Shown one piece after another: positions 40,901 to 52,433 of a stretch of DNA of 64,000 nt. The position numbers were made by a program, and so were the translations under genes. The notes beneath the pieces are model-generated. The model searched no databases. It was not told the DNA's origin and saw only the letters and a list, made by a program, of their open reading frames with translations. Within the stretch, counting starts at the first letter, position 1. Each line of letters begins with the position of its first letter. The stretch lies in NCBI RefSeq assembly GCF_004353525.1, contig NZ_CP085524.1, positions 2,997,001 to 3,061,000 of the forward strand, given 5' to 3'. Source of the stretch: Zhaonella formicivorans. Lineage in GTDB: Bacteria > Bacillota > DUOV01 > Zhaonellaceae.

Positions 40901-42640
40901 GTGAAGAAGCTTTTGACAGGAAACGAGGCGATTGCCCGGGGGGCTTTTGAAGCCGGCGTTACAGTGGCGGCAGCTTACCCAGGTACGCCAAGCACAGAGA
41001 TCTTGGAAAATATAGCAGGGTATCCGGAAATTTATGCCGAGTGGTCACCCAACGAGAAGGTAGCTTTGGAAGTGGGGATTGGCGCCTCCATTGCCGGAGC
41101 CAGGGTGCTGGTAGCCATGAAGCATGTGGGCGTCAATGTGGCGGCCGACCCGCTCCTGACTTTGGCCTATACAGGGGTAAACGGCGGCCTGGTTTTAGTT
41201 TCTGCCGATGACCCCGGTATGCATAGTTCCCAAAACGAGCAGGATAACCGTTATTATGCCAAATTTGCCCAAATACCCCTTTTAGAGCCCAGCGACAGCC
41301 AGGAAGCCAAGGAGATGTTAATCGAGGCTTACCGGTTGAGCGAACAATTCGATACCCCTGTCCTTTTCAGGACTACCACAAGGGTTGCCCATTCTCAGTC
41401 CCTGGTGGAGCTGGGGGAAAGAGAAGAAGTACCTCTCAAAGAATATGTGAAAAATGCGCAGAAATATGTGATGCTGCCAGCCCATGGACGGATGCGCCAC
41501 CCAATCGTGGAAGAACGCAGGGAAAAGCTGGCGCTCTACAATGAGACAAGCGCGTTTAACCGTATTGAAAGGGGCAGTTCAAAAATCGGGATCATCACCA
41601 GCGGCATTGCTTACCAGTATGTGAAAGAAGCTGTGCCGGAGGCTTCCGTGCTGAAATTGGGGATGACTTATCCTTTGCCCAAAAAACTGATTAGTAGCTT
41701 TGTAGATTCCGTTGAAACTTGTTACGTGGTTGAGGAACTGGAGCCTTTCCTGGAGGAACAACTGAAAGCATGGGGCTTAAAGGTAATCGGCAAAGAGCTT
41801 TTTCCCAGGGTCGGAGAACTTAGTTCCGAACTGGTAGCAGCCAAACTCAGCCTAGGACAGTCCCAGCATGAAGTGGCGGCGAGCAGCGCAGCCCCTATTC
41901 CTGTCCGACCTCCTGTGCTCTGCCCGGGATGTCCTCACCGCGGTGTTTACTATGTAATCAATAAGCTGAGACTGAAAGTTGCCGGTGATATCGGTTGTTA
42001 TACGCTTGGGGCTACTCCTCCTTTATCCAGTATGGATACCTGCATCTGTATGGGAGCCAGCATCAGCGGTGCCCTGGGCATGGAGAAGGCCAGGGGTAAG
42101 GAGTTTGCCAGGGGATTGGTGGCTGTAATCGGCGACTCTACCTTTATGCATTCCGGCATGACGGGGCTGGTGGATGTGGTATACAACGGAGGGACTACTA
42201 CTACGCTGATCCTGGATAACAGCACCACCGCCATGACCGGCCATCAGGACCACCCGGCTACTGGTATGACCCTAGGCAAAAAACAGTTTAAGCAGATAGA
42301 CTTGGAACAGCTGGTTAGGGCATTGGGAGTGGAGCGGGTGCAAGTGGTAGACCCTTACGATTTGAAAGCAGTGGAAGAAGCCCTTAAAACCGAAGTGGCC
42401 ATTGAGGAACCTTCCGTCATTATCTTTAAGCGGCCCTGCGTGCTCCTGAAAGGCCATGCTCCTGAAGGCTGTGTTACTGTAGAACAAGAAAAATGCAAGG
42501 CCTGCGGCATGTGCCGCAAGCTGGGCTGTCCGGCCCTGGTCTTTAAGGGTGATAAGCCGGCGGTGAATGCTACCTTGTGTAACGGCTGCGGCCTGTGCAT
42601 ACAAGTCTGCCGTTTCGGGGCAATCCGGGAGGTGGAGTAA
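40901..42640 (+). CDS. iorA: Indolepyruvate ferredoxin oxidoreductase, alpha subunit
   Basis: Thiamine-diphosphate enzyme subunit that oxidises arylpyruvates to arylacetyl-CoA with ferredoxin. Visible in order: the pyrimidine-binding domain (LLTGNEAIARGAFEAGV, AAAYPGTPSTEI, EWSPNEKVALEVGIGAS), a cysteine-containing PP domain (CPGCPHRGVYY, GDIGCYTLGATPPL, and GDSTFMHSGMTGLVDVVYN with the metal-binding GDS...N motif), and a C-terminal two-cluster ferredoxin domain (CKACGMCRKLGC and CNGCGLCIQVC). At 579 residues it is full length. The start is GTG. It ends directly against iorB. Confidence 0.97.
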   Translation: MKKLLTGNEAIARGAFEAGVTVAAAYPGTPSTEILENIAGYPEIYAEWSPNEKVALEVGIGASIAGARVLVAMKHVGVNVAADPLLTLAYTGVNGGLVLVSADDPGMHSSQNEQDNRYYAKFAQIPLLEPSDSQEAKEMLIEAYRLSEQFDTPVLFRTTTRVAHSQSLVELGEREEVPLKEYVKNAQKYVMLPAHGRMRHPIVEERREKLALYNETSAFNRIERGSSKIGIITSGIAYQYVKEAVPEASVLKLGMTYPLPKKLISSFVDSVETCYVVEELEPFLEEQLKAWGLKVIGKELFPRVGELSSELVAAKLSLGQSQHEVAASSAAPIPVRPPVLCPGCPHRGVYYVINKLRLKVAGDIGCYTLGATPPLSSMDTCICMGASISGALGMEKARGKEFARGLVAVIGDSTFMHSGMTGLVDVVYNGGTTTTLILDNSTTAMTGHQDHPATGMTLGKKQFKQIDLEQLVRALGVERVQVVDPYDLKAVEEALKTEVAIEEPSVIIFKRPCVLLKGHAPEGCVTVEQEKCKACGMCRKLGCPALVFKGDKPAVNATLCNGCGLCIQVCRFGAIREVE

Positions 42641-43219
42641 ATGGAGAAGACTACGAACATTCTCCTGGTTGGCGTTGGAGGCCAGGGTACAATTTTGGCC
42701 AGTAAAATCCTGGGGCATGTGGCGCAAAACCTGGGGGCGGAAGTTAAAGTCTCGGAAATTCACGGCATGTCCCAACGGGGAGGCAGTGTGGTCACCCAAG
42801 TCCGTTTTGGGGAGAAGGTTTATTCCCCTGTCATTGCGCCGGGCACGGCTGATGTAATTTTGGCCTTCGAAAAACTGGAGGCGCTACGCTGGTTGCCCTT
42901 TTTAAAAGAAGGCGGGGTAATGATCGTCAATAACCAGGAAATTGACCCGATGCCGGTAATCATGGGCGCCGCCGAATACCCGCAGGATATTTTCCGTACT
43001 CTCGAGTCGGCAGCCCGGACTGTGAAGGTTCCTGCCCTGGCTATGGCGGAAGCCTGTGGTTCTGTCAAGAGCGTGAACGTAGTGCTTTTAGGTGTCTTGG
43101 CCAAGTCCTTGGGTTTGGATGAAGAGGTATGGCTGGATGCCCTGATTCACTGCGTGCCCAAAAAGACCATCGAGGTAAATAAGAAAGCTTTTCTGCAAGG
43201 TTATCAATTTGCAGGTTAG
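42641..43219 (+). CDS. iorB: Indolepyruvate ferredoxin oxidoreductase, beta subunit
   Basis: Gamma-domain subunit of the 2-oxoacid:ferredoxin oxidoreductase. The start LLVGVGGQGTILASKILGHVA and SEIHGMSQRGGSVVTQVRFG are characteristic of IorB. At 192 residues it is full length. The ATG begins one base after the iorA stop, so the pair is coupled. A hairpin terminator follows and is shared with the convergent regulator gene. Confidence 0.96.
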   Translation: MEKTTNILLVGVGGQGTILASKILGHVAQNLGAEVKVSEIHGMSQRGGSVVTQVRFGEKVYSPVIAPGTADVILAFEKLEALRWLPFLKEGGVMIVNNQEIDPMPVIMGAAEYPQDIFRTLESAARTVKVPALAMAEACGSVKSVNVVLLGVLAKSLGLDEEVWLDALIHCVPKKTIEVNKKAFLQGYQFAG

Positions 43220-43223
43220 ATAA

Positions 43224-43253
43224 AAGCCCAGGTGTCCCTGGGCTTCCTTTTAT
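43224..43253. terminator. Terminator between iorB and the LuxR-type gene
   Basis: AAGCCCAGG (43224-43232) pairs with CCTGGGCTT (43237-43245), with CCTTTTATT after it. Confidence 0.75.
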
Positions 43254-44389
43254 TCTTCTGTTTCTTCTTCTGCAGGAATAAGAGTCCCTGCAAATCCCCG
43301 GCGAAGGGCTTCTGCTGCCGCCTGCCCCCGGCTGCGTACATTTAGCTTTTCCAGAATGTTTCGCACATGATTTTTAACCGTATATGCGCTGATTTGCAGA
43401 TTTAAAGCTATTTCCTTATTGCTCATGCCGGCTGCCAAACCGGCCAGCACTTGCTTTTCTCTTGGCGAAAGGGTGAAATCCACGGTACTTATTTGCTCCC
43501 CTGCCTGCAAAGCGTTTAACCGGGCCCGCTGTAGCAGTTGGGCGTTATGAATACCCATTCCCAACTGAATTCCCATATTGACAAAAAGTGCTTCGTTTAA
43601 CCATAATTTAGGGAGCATTTTATCCCATGTCAGAATACAGAGGCCCCATGCCTCCTGGTGGTATAATGCGGGGAAGCCGACGAAAAAAATTCCCTGCAGG
43701 GCACAGGCCAAACTTTGCGGTACTGTTCCCTGTTTCTCCGGCCCGTAAAAGGGGCGGGAGTCAGGCAGGTCAGGAAGCCATTTAGGAAGCTTTTGCAGGT
43801 TGAGCAAAGTGCCGGTGGCCGCCGCCAGTTTAAGCTGTTTCCCATCTTTGATGTACAGGATTCCGGCTTGGGCTCCGGTAGCTTGTTTAACCCGCTGCAA
43901 AAACAGTTTACATAGGTTATCGGTTTCCAGGGATTCATTGACCGCGGTGGCTGCTACGTTCAGCAGAAAAAGCTGGGCATTTTTAAATTCCATTTCTTCC
44001 TGCACACTTTTAGCCTGGGTGATATCGGTGTATACTTCCACCCGGCCCAGCAACTGCTGCTTTTTGTTAAAAACAGGGCCGCTAAAACGCTGCAGGATGC
44101 GCCGGCGGGGAATGCTGACTTCAACTTCATCGTGGGCAGTTACCTCCGGATTTTCATAAAGCCAAAACAGCCTCTTTTCAAACTCCTCAGGGTTTTGTAC
44201 CCGCCATTTGATGTCCCGGGTGATAGCAGTGCGCTTATCCTGTCCGATTAAAGCTGAAGGATCCAAACCGAAAAAATCGCCGAAGCGGCTGTTACAGAGC
44301 ACCACTTGTAAACGGCTGTCTACCATCAGAATGGCCGCATCAACGGAATCAAGCACTGCTTGCAGCATTTGGGCCCCATCCTCCCACAT
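43250..44389 (-). CDS. PAS-GAF-LuxR transcriptional regulator
   Basis: A 379-residue soluble regulator. A PAS domain at about 5-135 (VLDSVDAAILMVDSRLQVVLCNSRFGDFFG) is followed by a GAF-like domain at about 145-295. A C-terminal LuxR-type helix-turn-helix lies at about 310-370 (LSPREKQVLAGLAAGMSNKEIA and TVKNHVRNILEKLNV). There is no receiver domain, so it probably senses a small molecule directly. It lies convergent to iorB and divergent from cynS; control of either unit is a reasonable guess. Confidence 0.9.
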   Translation of the reverse strand: MWEDGAQMLQAVLDSVDAAILMVDSRLQVVLCNSRFGDFFGLDPSALIGQDKRTAITRDIKWRVQNPEEFEKRLFWLYENPEVTAHDEVEVSIPRRRILQRFSGPVFNKKQQLLGRVEVYTDITQAKSVQEEMEFKNAQLFLLNVAATAVNESLETDNLCKLFLQRVKQATGAQAGILYIKDGKQLKLAAATGTLLNLQKLPKWLPDLPDSRPFYGPEKQGTVPQSLACALQGIFFVGFPALYHQEAWGLCILTWDKMLPKLWLNEALFVNMGIQLGMGIHNAQLLQRARLNALQAGEQISTVDFTLSPREKQVLAGLAAGMSNKEIALNLQISAYTVKNHVRNILEKLNVRSRGQAAAEALRRGFAGTLIPAEEETEE

Positions 44390-44597: not shown

Positions 44598-45023
44598 GTG
44601 AACCGTTTGGAAGCTTTGGAAATTTTACAGGAGGCAAGAAAAAAGCAAGGGCTTACTTATGAGCAGCTGGGGGTCAAAGTGGGGCACAACGCCATGTGGA
44701 TAGCCAGCGCTTTCCAGGGGCAGCAGCATGTGCCGCCGGAAGAGGCGATCAAGATTGTGCAGGAGCTGGGAGTCCCTAAAGATGTGGCTGAAGTACTGGC
44801 GCAGCATCCCTACAAAGGCAAGACCGACCCAGTGATCTATCGCCTGCAGGAGATTGTAGATGTATACGGGCCGGCAATCAAAGAGGTCATCCATGAAAAA
44901 TTTGGCAACGGGATCATGAGTGCTATCGATTTCACTATTGATATTCAAAAACAAGAAGATCCTAAAGGGGACAGGGTACTAATCACCATGAGCGGCAAAT
45001 TCCTGCCTTATAAGATTTTCTAA
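44598..45023 (+). CDS. cynS: Cyanate hydratase (cyanase)
   Basis: Converts cyanate and bicarbonate to ammonia and CO2 through carbamate. All three catalytic residues are conserved with the spacing of the E. coli enzyme: Arg82 and Glu85 (YRLQEIVDVYG) and Ser108 (GIMSAIDF). The N-terminal helix-turn-helix-like domain and the end ITMSGKFLPYKIF match too. At 141 residues it has a shorter N-terminus. The GTG start follows AAGGGGG. Cyanase is uncommon in Clostridia, and no carbonic anhydrase or cyanate transporter gene is adjacent. Confidence 0.96.
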   Translation: MNRLEALEILQEARKKQGLTYEQLGVKVGHNAMWIASAFQGQQHVPPEEAIKIVQELGVPKDVAEVLAQHPYKGKTDPVIYRLQEIVDVYGPAIKEVIHEKFGNGIMSAIDFTIDIQKQEDPKGDRVLITMSGKFLPYKIF

Positions 45024-45109: not shown

Positions 45110-46291
45110 TTAATCTTCCACACCTAACATCCTAGCAGCCAAAACGATATAGAACTTAATAGCTTCCATGACCTCATGAATATCTACGGATTCGTTGGGT
45201 TGGTGCGCCAGTTTTTCGTCCCCTGGTCCCATAATTAGTGCTGGAACTCCTGTGGCAGGTACAAAGATTGAGGCGTCAGTGTAGTAGTTGACGCCGTAAA
45301 GTTTTAAATCAGTATGACCGAGGAATTTTTTTACAGTACCGGCAGCCTTGATGATAGCTTCCTTTGCATCAGTTTCTACAGGTACCCGCTCATTGATAAC
45401 TTTTATTTCAGTTTGAAATCCTGGGAAGCTGTCTAACCTGTCCAAGATGTCTTTTATTTGTGCCAGGATGCGGCTGTGATCCATGCCTGGGACGGTTCGT
45501 ATATCGATGGTAGCGGTGCATTTATCTGGAACGACATTGGTTTTGATTCCACCCGAAATAGTTCCCACATTAATTGTAGGATTCCCCAGCAGAAAATGGG
45601 GAGAACAGGTAAAATCAAATTGTTCCAACTCGTGCAAAAAACGATTCATATGCCGAATAGCGTTTGCCCCTTGTTCGGGCATGGCGCCGTGTGCGGTTTG
45701 GCCGAAAGTGGTTATTTCCAACCACAGGCATCCTTTATGGGCGGTGAAAAGCTTTAATGAGCTTGGTTCTGCAATCACCATGGCCTGAAGATTTTGCAAC
45801 AGTCCGCTTTCCACCAGCAGCTTGGCGCCGATGCTATCGCTTTCTTCACCGGCCGTACCGGCCACGATTAAATCCCCTTGCAGCTTGATACCGGATTTTT
45901 TCAAGAGACAGGCGGCCATTACCAAGGCCGCCAAGCCGCTTTTCATATCTACTGTTCCTCTACCGTACATGCGCCCGTCAATTACAGTACCGCTAAATGG
46001 ATCATATTCCCACGGGTTTTCTCCCGGGGGTACGGTATCCAAATGCCCGTTAAAAAGTAAGGCCCCTTTTTTGCCGGTCCCCCGGATGATCCCCGTAACG
46101 TTTGCTCTACCTTCGGCAAAAGTATCCACTTGATTGCTGATACCGTAACTGGCCAACTTCCTGGCAACAGCCTGCGCTACTTGTAATTCCCCTCCAGGAG
46201 GATTAACAGAATTACTTTGCACCAGTTGTTGCAGAAACTCCACAACCTCTTCTATGTCTATGCTGCCAATAATGTTGCTCAGGTTCTGCAA
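45110..46291 (-). CDS. M20-family peptidase/deacylase, ArgE/DapE-like
   Basis: Two-zinc amide hydrolase. Metal and catalytic motifs: FNGHLDTVPPG, GRGTVDMKSGLAALV, TAGEESDSIGAK (catalytic and metal-binding glutamates) and a late histidine in GDEKLAHQPNES. The dimerisation domain in the middle (TTFGQTAHGAMPEQGANAI) is typical. At 393 residues it is full length. The start is TTG at 46291, seven bases from TAAGGAGG; a GTG at 46336 lies within the upstream gene. That gene's stop forms part of this box, so the two are coupled. The substrate is probably an N-acyl or N-carbamoyl amino acid. Confidence 0.88.
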   Translation of the reverse strand: MQNLSNIIGSIDIEEVVEFLQQLVQSNSVNPPGGELQVAQAVARKLASYGISNQVDTFAEGRANVTGIIRGTGKKGALLFNGHLDTVPPGENPWEYDPFSGTVIDGRMYGRGTVDMKSGLAALVMAACLLKKSGIKLQGDLIVAGTAGEESDSIGAKLLVESGLLQNLQAMVIAEPSSLKLFTAHKGCLWLEITTFGQTAHGAMPEQGANAIRHMNRFLHELEQFDFTCSPHFLLGNPTINVGTISGGIKTNVVPDKCTATIDIRTVPGMDHSRILAQIKDILDRLDSFPGFQTEIKVINERVPVETDAKEAIIKAAGTVKKFLGHTDLKLYGVNYYTDASIFVPATGVPALIMGPGDEKLAHQPNESVDIHEVMEAIKFYIVLAARMLGVED

Positions 46292-46304
46292 TATCCGTTC
46301 CTCC

Positions 46305-47663
46305 TTACAGTTCGTATGCAAAAGCTGCCAGATCACCTACACCTGTACGGTTTACAATTCCCCATTTGCTGGTCCAGCCACCGGCACCGTTTGCTTCCCG
46401 AACAGGCCTGTCTTCAAAGCCGGCGATACGGCCGTTAACGATTGTGTAGGTAGCCAGCTTGTCATCTCTGTCAATCACTGTGATGTTGGCCAGGGCACCT
46501 ACTCCTAAATGTCCAACTTTCTCTGTCCACCAGCTTTGCCCCGTTCTTTCAGCAATGAGCTTTGCGGGATTAATAGTCATAGTAGCGATAGACTTGGATA
46601 AGGAGAGTATTCCCATTTCGACAAGTTCCAGCAGGGCTGGTATGTTATCCCTGGTATCTCCGAACCCTTTCATGGTTGCATCATTTTGCCCATCGGAGAT
46701 TAAAATATCAACTAAGCCGGATTGTAGAGCCTCATAAGCAATTTCCTGGGCTTTTTTCGGCAAGAACAACCCTTCTCTGCTGCCCCTGCCTTTGCGGAGC
46801 ATAGTGGTAACAAACTCTCCGCTCACATGAGGCTGTTTTAACAGCTCAACTATAGTTTCCATGCTCTTGGCCGGGTCATCATGGGTGCCGCAGCCTGCTG
46901 CTGTGGCATGGCCTAAATGTACCGGTCTTCCTTTAGAAAGGCTTACAACTCTTTCGGCATGGGCAGGATCTTGGGTATGGGACATGAATACCAGCCCGGC
47001 TTTGGAGGTAATCTCGTAAATCTTATCAAAGCTTTCATCGCTCATGATAAAGTGACCCATGTGGTCCTTGATGCCTACGGTCAAGGGAGCGGTGGTAAAG
47101 GTGATGGGGTTGCGGGTGATCTTTTCATAAGCAACCTCCTTCTCCAACTCACCCCGGAAAAGGGCAATTAGCTCCTCCACGCTGGCTCTAGTTCCCAGGA
47201 TGTTTAAGGCTCCAATATAGCAGCCTATATTCATGGGAACTCCCCGGTCAACTTCAGCCCCTAAGAGGGAAGGAGCCATCAGAGTGTTGCCTGCTCCCGG
47301 GGAAAGACCTATAGTCACCCCATCTGCCACCGAACCGAAGATTGGTTCAGTGCTTACCTCAAAGAGGTCACCTAAATGGAGGTGCATATCGATGAGCCCC
47401 GGTACTACTAAGAGGCCTTCCACGTTAATAACTCGGTCTCCTTTTTCCGGAAAAATCTTATCTGCTACTTCAACTATCTCAGTGCCGGCAATGGCAATAT
47501 CCTGCACAGCTTCGATCTGGTTTTTGGGGTCAACCACAAAACCATTTTGCAGAATTAACCGTCCTTTGGATGCTAAAGGGTGCAACGGGTCGTGTAACCT
47601 ATTTTGCTTTACTGTGGCTAGAACATCAGGTAAAGAGCCTACTGATGTACGGTAAGAACTCAT
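46305..47663 (-). CDS. Amidohydrolase, dihydroorotase/hydantoinase-like
   Basis: Metal-dependent hydrolase of the amidohydrolase superfamily. HLHLGD (the HxH metal motif) follows the usual VPGLIDM, and the small beta domain has ILQNGFVVDPKNQIEAVQDIAI. Later likely ligands: MSHTQDPAHAERV, HLGHATAAGCGTH and LISDGQND. At 452 residues it fits hydantoinase or D-aminoacylase-like enzymes. It lies between a membrane protein gene and an M20 deacylase gene, an order expected for ring opening followed by amide hydrolysis. The precise substrate is unknown. Confidence 0.8.
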   Translation of the reverse strand: MSSYRTSVGSLPDVLATVKQNRLHDPLHPLASKGRLILQNGFVVDPKNQIEAVQDIAIAGTEIVEVADKIFPEKGDRVINVEGLLVVPGLIDMHLHLGDLFEVSTEPIFGSVADGVTIGLSPGAGNTLMAPSLLGAEVDRGVPMNIGCYIGALNILGTRASVEELIALFRGELEKEVAYEKITRNPITFTTAPLTVGIKDHMGHFIMSDESFDKIYEITSKAGLVFMSHTQDPAHAERVVSLSKGRPVHLGHATAAGCGTHDDPAKSMETIVELLKQPHVSGEFVTTMLRKGRGSREGLFLPKKAQEIAYEALQSGLVDILISDGQNDATMKGFGDTRDNIPALLELVEMGILSLSKSIATMTINPAKLIAERTGQSWWTEKVGHLGVGALANITVIDRDDKLATYTIVNGRIAGFEDRPVREANGAGGWTSKWGIVNRTGVGDLAAFAYEL

Positions 47664-47735
47664 GGTAAAAGCCTCCTTATTTTTAGAAAGAGTTATTAAA
47701 TGTTGCCTGATAATCTTAATTTAGTTTGACTCAAG

Positions 47736-48968
47736 TTACCAGGGCCTACCAAGGCCTGGCAAAACGTTAACTATCATCATGACAATCACAATGCCAAGCG
47801 ACATAGCGAAGGTATTGCCGATTAAGGGGTGCCAGCCCTCGGGTAGCTTGCGGTTAACCATATCACCCAGCGGAGGTCCGATAAGAGCGCCTAGGATTGC
47901 CCCAATCAAGATGCTTTGCAATGTTCCTCCGTAAGCTAAAATTACAGCAGGAGTTATGCTTACAATTGGGACGAAGGTGGGATACCAACCTTTTTCCTCC
48001 CAGTGTTTATGGTAAAGGTAAACACCCAAGGCCGAGGTTAAGAGTTGTCCTGCCAACAGGGCAGGCAGCATTTTTCCGCCGTAGACGGTGCTTTCCGGGG
48101 TCAAAAACCAGGAAACTATGGTTCCAAGTAATAGTCCGATAGAAGCTAACTCGTTGGCATAAAATTGGGGCTCGGTAAAATCGGCCAATACCCGGCGTAC
48201 AAACCAGCTGGCGGATGACAAATTTTCCTTAGGAGCGGGGCTTTCAGGAGCTTTAGGCTCTACCCGCTTAATCCAGGGAAGATAACGACAAATTTCCAGA
48301 GTAATGATTCCTCCAAGCCACATGGAAGTTACGTTGCCTACAACCAAAGGCAGTTTCCAAGGCACTAACAGGAAAATATCCACCCAATAGGCAATGGGGA
48401 AACCCAGTAAAGCGCCTAAGACCGCTCCGGTAAAAACTGTTGCTAAGCTAGGCCCATAAACAAATAATACTGCTACCGGAATGCTTACAAAGGGTACAAA
48501 GGTAGGCACCCAGCCCAAGTCGGTTGTGCCTAGAACTTCTAAAAACCGGAAGACAAAGACTGAAAAGATGAGGCCCAAAGTCTGGGAGGCCAATACCCAG
48601 GGCCAAATACCACTGCCATAGGCGATGGAAAAACCTGCCCATCTTGATTTTTGGGTATCCAAGAACCAGGCTAGGGCTGCAAACCCAATCATAGCTACAC
48701 CGCCCAAAGCGCTTTTGTAGAATTGTGCTTCGTTGGTATCCCCCAGGAACCAATAAAGCTTGTACAACAATTGAGTGGGAGCTTTTTCAGCCAGTTCCCC
48801 GTAGGTCATCCATCCACTGCCTGTGGGCAGTGTGGTCAAAAGGTAGTAAAGCCCCAGGGCACATAAAGCAATTAACCCTAGCCCAGCCAGGGATGGGCCT
48901 GTTTTTTTAGCTGCCTCTGAAATTCTTTCATCGTCATCAGCATATACCTCTTTTGCCAATTGACTCAT
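47736..48968 (-). CDS. Predicted permease with internal duplication, unknown family
   Basis: A 410-residue membrane protein with about ten hydrophobic segments. The halves repeat: GWVPTFVPFVSIPVAVLFVYG with GAVLGALLGFPIAYW in the first, and GWYPTFVPIVSITPAVILAYG with GAILGALIGPPLGDM in the second. Each half also has an F[YA]K/N segment before it (EAQFYKSALGGVAM and EPQFYANELASIGL). I do not recognise the family. ATG at 48968 follows GAGGAGGG. It lies between the PucR gene and the amidohydrolase, so transport of their substrate is likely. Confidence 0.7.
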   Translation of the reverse strand: MSQLAKEVYADDDERISEAAKKTGPSLAGLGLIALCALGLYYLLTTLPTGSGWMTYGELAEKAPTQLLYKLYWFLGDTNEAQFYKSALGGVAMIGFAALAWFLDTQKSRWAGFSIAYGSGIWPWVLASQTLGLIFSVFVFRFLEVLGTTDLGWVPTFVPFVSIPVAVLFVYGPSLATVFTGAVLGALLGFPIAYWVDIFLLVPWKLPLVVGNVTSMWLGGIITLEICRYLPWIKRVEPKAPESPAPKENLSSASWFVRRVLADFTEPQFYANELASIGLLLGTIVSWFLTPESTVYGGKMLPALLAGQLLTSALGVYLYHKHWEEKGWYPTFVPIVSITPAVILAYGGTLQSILIGAILGALIGPPLGDMVNRKLPEGWHPLIGNTFAMSLGIVIVMMIVNVLPGLGRPW

Positions 48969-49056
48969 TGTTTCCCTCCTCAACCAATTTTGTAATTAGG
49001 TGCATTAACGAAAAACTGGTGTACTTGCTTGTATTAGTTAATCCCTCCTTCATAAT

Positions 49057-49153
49057 TTGTTGTGTGACAATTTCGATAATAAAAGACCTCCCCCCTTTGG
49101 GACATATTCCGAAAACAAGGGAGAGGAAATTGTGAATAATCACAAATTGTGAT
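49057..49153. promoter_or_regulatory. Putative operator of the permease/amidohydrolase unit
   Basis: TTGTGA (49130-49135), TCACAA (49140-49145) and TTGTGA (49147-49152) alternate in orientation, giving two overlapping palindromes. A related TTGT-GTG-ACAA is at 49060-49070. The region lies between pucR and the permease gene, so it may bind the PucR-type protein. Confidence 0.5.
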
Positions 49154-49183
49154 AGTAAATATAAGTTTATAGTTATTAAATTG

Positions 49184-50743
49184 TTATAGAGACTTTGGAG
49201 CCACTATTTTGGCAATCTTCATGGCTACCAGAAGATTTAAGCGATCTTCAAAATCCTGCAAGGAAATGTCTAAAATCTGTTCTATCTTAGTTAAACGATA
49301 GTACAGGGTATTGTGGTGTATAAAAAGGACCTGGCTGGTTTTAGTCAGACTTTGGTTATTAGCGAAATAAGCCTCAAGAGTTTCAACCAGATGGCTGCGG
49401 TTAAGCTGGTCGAATTCTACCAAGGGTAGGAACTTTTCCTGATAAAAAGCTAGGACCTCATGGTCCTGCTCTCTGCCTAACAATAGGCGATAGACCCCTA
49501 AATCATCATAGGCCGTAACTGTATTCTCAACTTTTGCTGCATCGGCAAGCTTCAGTGCTTGCTGTGCCTGGCTGTAACCTTGCCTGATTTCCAAAATGTC
49601 CTCAATGTAGCGGGATATGCCTACAGAAAACTGAATTTCTGGCATTTGTTTTTTTGCCTGGCGAATTATTTCATGGGCAGTGTTTTTTAACCTCGATAAT
49701 TGAGCTTTGCTTGTTTCCTTATTTTGTGGAGCACTCAATACCAAAACATAGTCGCCAACGAAAGCAATAATTGGTTGCGGTTCGGAAAATTGAAAACGCT
49801 GGGCAATGATTTTAGCCAGGTTTTGCTTAGCTTTTAGCGCTTTATCCTCATTTTCTGCCAGTTGTTTAGAGATAGCAGGATGACTTTGGAAAAGACAGAC
49901 TATATGTCCCAGATTCAGATCCCAGCCATAAAAAGCTCCTCTTTTAAGTACTGTTGCCCGTTCATGATAATGGCCAAAAATTAAGTCGGTTATGAAGTCG
50001 TTACGAAAGCGTTGTTCCACCTCTTTTTTTGCTTCTTCCCGCTGCATTAGTAAGGCAATTACCGTGGCACCATGAACGACAGCCACTTTGGCTATTTCGT
50101 TAACCGGCTGCTCTTTTTCAGTTAATATTAGCCAGCCGTAAGGCCGAGAACCGGCTTGCACTATAGCTTTATAGGAATTTTTATCCTGAATGTCTGTCAT
50201 TTCTTCTGCTAAAATCGTATCCTGGTAGAAAGCTACCTCCCCTTGGGTAAACTGGGATAAAGCAGTAAGCACATCCTGAACTTGCCCGCCGTTAAGCACT
50301 ATCTCAGTCAATCGGCGGTGAATGTGCTCAGACTTAGATAGTAGATCTGCCTGCTCATGCAGGATCGCAGTTAAGATAGGGTTCATAATTTCTACCCAGG
50401 AACAATGGAGAGGGATATAGAATAACGGAAAATTTAAATCATTAGCGGCAGATAGAGCTTTAGGAGGAAGTTCATCAATAAAACGTTTTAGTTTAATGCC
50501 CAGGGCGGCAACTCCGCGGGCGTGAAGGTCGTGAATTAAGGTAACGATGGCTTCCGGATCGTCTTTTAAAACGTAGGCTGTAGTTATTAGTAGTTCGTTT
50601 CCTTTTAACCAATCTTTAATATCGGGAGCATCCATTACGCTGACGCTTTGAATCACGTTGTCCAGACCCCCATGGCCTGCCAGCACTTCAGCTTCAGTTA
50701 AGGGTTGAAGCTTTAGAGCTTCCCGCACGGTAATTCCCATCAT
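49184..50743 (-). CDS. PucR-family transcriptional regulator
   Basis: A 519-residue regulator. The N-terminal PucR domain (residues about 1-125, VREALKLQPLTEAEVLAGHGGLDN) is followed by a central GGDEF-related region (about 250-400). The C-terminal HTH_30 domain has LVETLEAYFANNQSLTKTSQVLFIHHNTLYYRLTKIEQIL. In Bacillus PucR controls purine catabolism, and relatives often sit next to catabolic genes for allantoin, amino acids or hydantoins. Here it precedes the permease, amidohydrolase and M20 genes on the same strand. The start is ATG with GGAGGTC. Confidence 0.93.
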   Translation of the reverse strand: MMGITVREALKLQPLTEAEVLAGHGGLDNVIQSVSVMDAPDIKDWLKGNELLITTAYVLKDDPEAIVTLIHDLHARGVAALGIKLKRFIDELPPKALSAANDLNFPLFYIPLHCSWVEIMNPILTAILHEQADLLSKSEHIHRRLTEIVLNGGQVQDVLTALSQFTQGEVAFYQDTILAEEMTDIQDKNSYKAIVQAGSRPYGWLILTEKEQPVNEIAKVAVVHGATVIALLMQREEAKKEVEQRFRNDFITDLIFGHYHERATVLKRGAFYGWDLNLGHIVCLFQSHPAISKQLAENEDKALKAKQNLAKIIAQRFQFSEPQPIIAFVGDYVLVLSAPQNKETSKAQLSRLKNTAHEIIRQAKKQMPEIQFSVGISRYIEDILEIRQGYSQAQQALKLADAAKVENTVTAYDDLGVYRLLLGREQDHEVLAFYQEKFLPLVEFDQLNRSHLVETLEAYFANNQSLTKTSQVLFIHHNTLYYRLTKIEQILDISLQDFEDRLNLLVAMKIAKIVAPKSL

Positions 50744-51063: not shown

Positions 51064-51642
51064 ATGTCTGCTCCTAACGATCAACTGGTTTTGGCCGAGG
51101 CTTTATTTAAAGCCTACTACCGGAAAACCTGCCGGGCCATCACCTATTTAATAAAGGATCCTTATTCAGTGGAAGACGTGGTACAACAAGCTTTCTTAAA
51201 GGCGTTTAACCGCTTGAACCAGCTTAACGATTTCGGGAAATTCGGCCCTTGGCTTGTCAGCATTGCCATCAACGAAGCCAAAGATGTCTTGCGCCGGGAA
51301 AAGAAAGTCCTGGTGCTGGACAATGCTGAACAGTTGGGCAGTTTAAAGCGCGCTGAATATGGCGGGAAAGGTATTTTGGAAGAAATCGAACTAAAAAGTG
51401 ATGTCAATTCCTACTTGCAACAGCTGCCGCTGAAGTACCGGGAGGTTTTACTCCTGAAATACTATTACGACCTGGAGATCAAAGAGATTGCCCAGTTCTT
51501 GAAAATCAGCCAAGGTACCGTGAAATCCCGCATTCACCGGGCGAAAGAGGCATACCGGCAGCTGGTGGAAGCCTGGGAGAACTCCGTGGCTTCCACAGAT
51601 GATGTCGTGGGTGAGCGAGGTGAAACCGGATGCGGCAAATAA
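51064..51642 (+). CDS. ECF-type RNA polymerase sigma factor
   Basis: A 192-residue sigma factor with region 2 (LFKAYYRKTCRAITYLIKDPYSVEDVVQQAFLKAF) and region 4 (QLPLKYREVLLLKYYYDLEIKEIAQFLKISQGTVKSRIHRAKEAYRQL) separated by a short linker. Regions 1 and 3 are absent, as in extracytoplasmic-function factors. It overlaps the next gene by 13 bases, which encodes its likely membrane anti-sigma partner. GGAGG precedes the ATG. The inducing signal is unknown. Confidence 0.95.
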   Translation: MSAPNDQLVLAEALFKAYYRKTCRAITYLIKDPYSVEDVVQQAFLKAFNRLNQLNDFGKFGPWLVSIAINEAKDVLRREKKVLVLDNAEQLGSLKRAEYGGKGILEEIELKSDVNSYLQQLPLKYREVLLLKYYYDLEIKEIAQFLKISQGTVKSRIHRAKEAYRQLVEAWENSVASTDDVVGERGETGCGK

Positions 51643-52433
51643 CCGATGCGGAACTGGATGAATTAATTAGACAGGCTTTAATTGAAGAAGCTGAAAGCAT
51701 TGAGATAACCCCTGAACAGATCGAGGCCGGCTGGCAAAAGCTGCAAGCCCGCTTGGAAGCGGAAGGTTTTTGCCAAAAGGAACTTAGGCGCAAGGTCCTT
51801 ATGCCCTGGGGTCAGGTGGCAAAGATTGCCGGCTTGGTGCTGCTGGTTATAACCGTTGCTTTTAATTCCCTACCTCACCAGGCAAAGGCGGTGGGCAACA
51901 GGTTTTTTATTTCCATCTGGCAGAAAGTAACCGGCAATTCAGTCAATGTATTTATCTCCGGCGGTCTGCCGGAAGAAGCTCCTGCCAAAGATGCTCCCCC
52001 TCCCCCAAAGGTCTTCGAGGTAGCGGAGCCGGAACCGGAAAAGGAAATGAGCCTGGAGGAAATTAAACAAACCGCCACTTTCAGGCCTTTCGTGCCCGCT
52101 TATCTGCCTGATGGATATGTGCTCAAGCGGGCCACATACCAGGTAATCTACAAAGAGTCATCCCGGGTTTACCTGGAGTATGACGGGGGGGCTGATGTGC
52201 CGCTGCGCATCGAGCAGCGCAATATTTTGGGTCAAATGGGTGCAGGGGTAGGTTTTGATAAAGATGATGCGGAGGCTAAGCAAATTCAGATTAACGGCAA
52301 CCCTGCCTTGCTTATAGTATTTAAGAGAGGCCATGCCGGTTTAATGTGGATGCAAAACAGCATCCAAATAGATATCTCGGGTCAAATCAGCGCCGGGGAG
52401 ATTGTAAAGATCGCCGAGTCAATGCGACAATAG
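51630..52433 (+). CDS. Membrane anti-sigma factor with DUF4367 domain
   Basis: A 267-residue single-pass protein. The N-terminal cytoplasmic part (about 1-65, mostly helical and acidic) should hold the sigma factor. A membrane segment follows (VAKIAGLVLLVITVAFNSL, about 70-90). A proline-rich linker (PAKDAPPPPKVFEVAEPEPE) leads to the exterior part with FRPFVPAYLPDGYVLKRATYQ and IQIDISGQISAGEIVKIAESM, recognisable as DUF4367. The overlap with the sigma gene supports the pairing. Confidence 0.85.
   Translation: MRQITDAELDELIRQALIEEAESIEITPEQIEAGWQKLQARLEAEGFCQKELRRKVLMPWGQVAKIAGLVLLVITVAFNSLPHQAKAVGNRFFISIWQKVTGNSVNVFISGGLPEEAPAKDAPPPPKVFEVAEPEPEKEMSLEEIKQTATFRPFVPAYLPDGYVLKRATYQVIYKESSRVYLEYDGGADVPLRIEQRNILGQMGAGVGFDKDDAEAKQIQINGNPALLIVFKRGHAGLMWMQNSIQIDISGQISAGEIVKIAESMRQ

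Follow-up and report, generated by a model that had tools for sequence, protein, structure and literature searches.

Urea transporters (UT/SLC14; PF03253), such as dvUT, Yut, UT-A and UT-B, form a small family that has been studied in detail and is associated with a single substrate. In imidase/half-amidase and hydantoinase pathways, an amidohydrolase is followed by a second C-N hydrolase. The amide and urea channels AmiS and UreI, and NqrB and RnfD, for which a resemblance to the urea transporter has been reported (PMC10643135), are further points of comparison for the locus described here. This locus lies in a 64,000-nucleotide stretch of Zhaonella formicivorans DNA (the window) and encodes a membrane protein, referred to below as the permease, that is probably representative of amide-uptake channels of a family not yet described.

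The permease resembles UT/SLC14 proteins in its predicted fold and in having two homologous halves; a weak profile alignment also places a putative Q/E-x-x-F motif in both halves, and an amide-type cargo is likely. It differs from them in sequence (11-15% identity to the UTs matched by structure), in the replacement of the central threonines, in the absence of the signature LPxxTxPF and in being undetected by PF03253, which matched none of 22 permease-family members up to an E value of 10. The neighbors of its gene are amide hydrolases, not urease. Because of the missing PF03253 match and signature, the permease was not filed as a UT/SLC14 member, although it would function in the manner of a urea transporter if the fold prediction is correct. 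The most fitting description is a new family built on a fold that is already known.

Like the AmiS/UreI channels, the permease is encoded beside amidases, and AmiS and the permease are both present in one region of Prescottella and Rhodococcus plasmids. AmiS is approximately 217 aa long there, whereas the permease is approximately 410 aa long, and comparison of the permease with AmiS/UreI gave neither a Pfam model match nor a structure match. An RnfD chain was a low-ranking Foldseek match of the permease model (probability 0.57); in contrast to the permease, NqrB and RnfD are subunits of redox ion pumps, and the permease has no Pfam match to them. The pairing of an amidohydrolase with a second C-N hydrolase resembles the imidase and hydantoinase pathways, but the enzyme families in the window are not the characterized ones. 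A literature search, with most subscription journals outside its coverage, found no description of a UT-fold amide transporter or of a UT gene in amidase or nitrilase operons.

Organization and regulation of the locus

The first-pass annotation had placed four minus-strand genes between positions 45110 and 50743, and all four open reading frames were present there. They encode a PucR-family regulator (49184-50743), the membrane protein, composed of two homologous halves and predicted to adopt a urea-transporter fold (47736-48968), an amidohydrolase-superfamily enzyme of an unnamed family (46305-47663) and an M20 family hydrolase (45110-46291). According to Shine-Dalgarno spacing, the likely starts of the permease (ATG at 48968) and the M20 protein (TTG at 46291, giving 393 aa) lie slightly inside the longest open reading frames, which extend to 48983 and 46336, respectively. 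With these starts, the permease, amidohydrolase and M20 genes form a compact operon-like run, and pucR is located directly upstream of it on the same strand.

The regulator contains PucR, GGDEF_2 and HTH_30 domains (PF07905, PF17853 and PF13556), all above the Pfam cut-offs, and therefore belongs to the PucR regulators. A PucR homologue (32% identity) also heads the related cluster at locus L024, described below, and the window protein is likely the local regulator of its cluster. The TTGTGA sites reported earlier between pucR and the permease gene are real: the gap contains the perfect palindrome TTGTGAATAATCACAA (TTGTGA-N4-TCACAA) at 49130-49145 and an extra adjoining half-site on the plus strand at 49147-49152. 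The genome (3.31 Mb) contains no other perfect copy of this 16-bp palindrome. Global control of the CRP/FNR type was considered and rejected, since a single perfect copy argues against a global regulon; the palindrome may plausibly serve as a local operator. No such palindrome was found in the two intergenic gaps inspected at L024.

Next to the cluster, a cyanase gene (cynS; TIGR00673 and PF02560 above cut-off) is located on the plus strand at 44598-45023, in convergent orientation and at a distance of 87 bp. Cyanase was rejected as a pathway member because of its convergent orientation and because its linkage was not kept at L024, where it was absent from the list of open reading frames. Further away, two overlapping genes at 40901-43219 resemble subunits of indolepyruvate ferredoxin oxidoreductase and are followed by a PAS-LuxR regulator gene (43250-44389). 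On the other side, at 51064-52433, a gene for an ECF sigma factor overlaps one for a DUF4367 membrane-type protein, likely forming a sigma/anti-sigma pair.

The permease is predicted to have a urea-transporter fold

The membrane protein had been described as internally duplicated and as belonging to no recognized family, and both statements were borne out. Comparison of its N-terminal and C-terminal halves by hhalign gave a probability of 99.9% (E value 6e-32, 34% identity). Searches against Pfam and NCBIfam gave no match above chance, those against PDB sequences gave nothing with either the single sequence or a 22-member profile, and the viral fold library gave no match. Thus, the protein matched no known non-transport family; such a match is what the first-pass annotation had named as contrary to its reading. 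Identity with ThrE was also considered, and it was rejected: the Pfam matches were weak (best E value 0.003, nine members) and below the standard, and the fold search gave no support.

Structure prediction, which had been proposed as a check, gave a urea-transporter fold in two AlphaFold2 models. The first was built for the window protein from 12 sequences (pLDDT 78.6, pTM 0.80), and the second was led by a Lachnospiraceae homologue with 35% identity to it (pLDDT 80.9, pTM 0.84); the same twelve sequences stand behind both, and therefore the models are not fully independent. When the window-protein model was compared with the PDB using Foldseek, the top 12 matches were urea transporters at a probability of 1.00 (E values 3.8e-4 to 4e-3, TM-score on the target up to 0.67), after which the matches fell sharply to MATE proteins at a probability of 0.25. 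All of the top 16 matches of the Lachnospiraceae-led model were urea transporters, also at a probability of 1.00. TM-scores of 0.5-0.67 and an rmsd of 5-7 Å indicate that the UT fold is compatible, although the match is not tight. Two inverted halves, as in the UT family, were found in the predicted models, and the repeat was confirmed by hhalign.

The permease profile was also compared by hhalign with an alignment of nine UT sequences, using reversed profiles as controls. The P value was 5.7e-4 for the full-length profiles, 7.3e-5 for the permease N-terminal half against the UT C-terminal half, and 7.7e-4 over 141 columns for the pooled repeats, whereas the reversed controls gave 0.06-0.13. 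The signal was weak but ran in the expected register across the whole repeat. Single UT sequences gave no signal against the permease profile beyond that of 33 unrelated membrane proteins; therefore, the sequence signal comes from the profile-profile comparison with reversed controls. Distant homology between the permease and UTs is probable at this level, short of proof. The proposal that the protein may define a new transporter type is thus sharpened: its family is unnamed, but its architecture is not new, being predicted to be that of urea transporters.

Putative pore residues

The Q-V-x-F motif of UTs, which comprises the dvUT filter residues Q24/V25/F27 and E187/V188/F190, fell in the weak profile alignment on E85-A-Q-F88 and E271-P-Q-F274 of the permease, giving E-x-Q-F in both halves. 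Among the 22 sequences, E85 was conserved in 21, F88 in 19, E271 in all and F274 in 21. The filter sites reported for dvUT comprise E187, V188, F190, L84, T130, L247 and T294 (PMC4357013). The UT leucines L84 and L247 fell on F162 (22/22) and F337 (F or Y in 22/22), and the UT threonines on V215 and I388, with position 215 being threonine in two of the 22 members. At the place of LPxxTxPF, which is missing from the permease family, P212-x-V-V-G-N and H385-P-x-I-G-N were aligned. From these positions, E85/E271 and F88/F274 are putative pore residues, and the filter looks as though its ends were kept and its middle rebuilt. Such a filter would be in keeping with a non-urea amide.

The two hydrolases

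The amidohydrolase matched PF01979 with 42 bits (cut-off 25), which places it in the amidohydrolase superfamily. Residues H94 and H96 of an HxH motif, K199, H229, H249/H252 and D324 were invariant in five homologues with 59-72% identity to the window protein; judging from the motif order (HxH...K...H...H...D), they are the candidate ligands. No NCBIfam model was matched above its cut-off: the score was 36 bits versus 393 for TIGR02033, and other related models were far below. The N- and C-terminal parts matched structures of dihydroorotases and dihydropyrimidinases.

The M20 protein contains the M20 and M20_dimer domains (PF01546/PF07687) and belongs to the ArgE/DapE group, with 298.8 bits for TIGR01910 (cut-off 217.6). 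The metal-ligand residues H98, D100, D130, E164/E165, E190 and H378 (numbered in the 408-aa open reading frame) were present and invariant in the alignment. No carbamoylase model was found among its 25 best NCBIfam matches; together with the ArgE/DapE assignment, this means that a route from a hydantoin to a carbamoylase is not specifically favored. Two related loci, L048 and L049, showed an Amidase gene next to the amidohydrolase gene and no M20 gene, suggesting that the second step is also amide hydrolysis.

Distribution of the cluster

Among 399 genomes of the same phylum, seven permease matches were found. Thirteen loci were found in a public genome collection (Pseudonocardia, Streptomyces, Actinomadura, Brevibacterium, Lachnospiraceae MAGs and others), and the gene was also present on six plasmids and in additional genomes of the Pseudonocardia phylum. 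Homologues thus came from Actinomycetota, Lachnospiraceae and Phyllobacterium. Two of the matches, L013 (8001-8471) and L014 (8001-8468), were approximately half-length and aligned in both repeat registers; they are possibly truncated, frameshifted or single-repeat genes.

The neighborhood comparison suggested by the first-pass annotation, which would have counted against the cluster had its genes been unlinked in all relatives, showed that the linkage is kept. All four genes were present on one strand and in a different order at L024, in a genome (G239) from another family of the same phylum, which was the only other genome in which they were found together; identities to the window proteins were 32% for PucR, 72% for the amidohydrolase, 33% for M20 and 38% for the permease. 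Each of L047-L049, from three genomes in the Pseudonocardia phylum, has an amidohydrolase gene (59-64% identity) beside the permease gene, and one of them also has an M20 gene (45%). The amidohydrolase occurred in two of the 399 same-phylum genomes, with the permease adjacent in both. It was not found in 80 relatives of either carrier genome, and a search of plasmids gave distant relatives only. The first-pass reading is thus supported in part, as a regulator-transporter-hydrolase cluster kept in relatives; the ring opening and two-step order that it proposed are putative.

Amide hydrolases adjoin permease genes

Since the loci were collected via the permease sequence alone, their neighbors were not preselected. 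Nearly all permease homologues adjoined C-N hydrolases of unrelated folds, namely amidase, nitrilase, asparaginase, FmdA/AmdA, AAT, amidohydrolase and M20. An Amidase gene was located within 5 kb of the permease gene in 10 of 10 actinobacterial cases, versus 0.23 expected from the Amidase gene counts per genome. With each of five clades counted once, in our own tree-guided split, the chance of this linkage was approximately 8e-9.

An Amidase gene was found near the permease gene in Prescottella and two Rhodococcus plasmids, an amidase and a nitrilase at L002, L003 and L005, and an asparaginase and a nitrilase in Paenarthrobacter. Nitrilase, amidase and tautomerase genes accompanied it in Phyllobacterium and likewise at a second Pseudonocardia locus (L050). 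The Actinomadura locus (L008) carried Amidohydro_3 and Amidase genes, the latter also occurring in its relatives, and the Brevibacterium locus carried M20 and Amidase genes. Two FmdA/AmdA genes and HyuA/HyuB were present in G073, and in G140 an AAT gene adjoined a permease homologue of 28% identity. No amide hydrolase was found near the homologue at L034, and the most distant homologue (L027) was located among choline-kinase-like genes. Because the hydrolase switches between unrelated folds from locus to locus, what the loci share is the C-N bond.

In Lachnospiraceae MAGs (L006, 5735-7807; L007, 6009-7883), a single open reading frame with two CN_hydrolase (nitrilase superfamily) domains adjoins the permease gene. 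L047 (671-13276) is a dense amide-catabolism region with an OPT transporter, three Amidases, the unnamed amidohydrolase, the permease, M20 and an SSF symporter.

Proposed function and alternative explanations

The explanation that we favor, and hold to be somewhat probable, is that the cluster serves to scavenge amides or ureides. Its permease would be the first member observed of an undescribed UT-fold family that takes up amides, imides or ureides. What is directly supported is the gene order, the conservation, the association with C-N hydrolases and the internal duplication. The two inverted halves of the permease, each with half-membrane helices, would meet at a pore admitting a small carboxamide, imide or ureide. 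The C-N bonds of the cargo would then be cleaved, in the window, by the amidohydrolase and the M20 protein in turn, and the products would feed nitrogen and carbon metabolism under PucR control. Relatives pair the permease family with other amide hydrolases, so that the common element would be the amide rather than one pathway. For the more general proposal, the chances appear to be about even: a widespread unnamed branch of UT-fold amide, imide and ureide importers, in at least two phyla, whose filter was rebuilt (acid and phenylalanine kept, threonines lost) and which is paired modularly with unrelated amide hydrolases.

Several other explanations were weighed. A proton- or ion-coupled secondary transporter on the UT scaffold, moving larger amides or N-acyl compounds, would account for the charged residues that are invariant or nearly so (R264, D268, E271, D82, E85 and H385) and for the loss of the central threonines. 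Substrates of the M20 deacylase could exceed urea in size, and NqrB shows that a UT scaffold is able to move ions (PMC10643135). Passive UTs, however, can also carry an acidic or amide residue at the Q/E site, and we regard such a transporter as unlikely. The fold might also be that of UTs while the cargo is a reaction product such as ammonia or ammonium. Release of ammonia is the established chemistry of the amidase, nitrilase, asparaginase and FmdA/AmdA families, and it is common to many of the neighbors. NqrB, with its UT-like fold, has also been likened to ammonium transporters (PMC10643135). On the other hand, M20, AAT and many amidohydrolases need not release ammonia, Amt/Rh proteins were not among the best Foldseek matches, and the aligned motif is the UT filter and not that of Amt, which makes a product cargo distinctly unlikely.

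An ordinary hydantoin or dihydropyrimidine pathway, with ring opening followed by hydrolysis of an N-carbamoyl amino acid, would agree with the structures matched by the amidohydrolase termini, with PucR and with the nearby cyanase. It appears very unlikely given that the amidohydrolase did not reach the cut-off of any dihydropyrimidinase, hydantoinase or allantoinase model, that the M20 protein groups with ArgE/DapE and had no carbamoylase model among its 25 best matches, and that in G580 and G644 an Amidase, and no M20 protein, was seen beside the amidohydrolase. Highly improbable, finally, is a wrong fold assignment, in which the permease would be a different, new two-repeat membrane protein linked to amides by another mechanism. 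The very low identity, the moderate TM-scores and the missing PF03253 match would fit such a protein, but two models gave only UTs at a probability of 1.00, and the profile alignment kept the same register over the whole repeat.

If the amide-import explanation is true, a sister family of UTs that is invisible to sequence searches would show the same pore retuned for other amides. Many amidase and nitrilase operons that include a "hypothetical protein" would then gain a candidate transporter in the permease, whose gene could also mark further amide pathways, including that of the unnamed amidohydrolase described here.

A true PF03253 urea transporter was seen at L051 (1390-2487), directly after a gene that resembles adenine deaminase in its sequence. 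This may further indicate that UT genes occur close to genes of purine or ureide catabolism.
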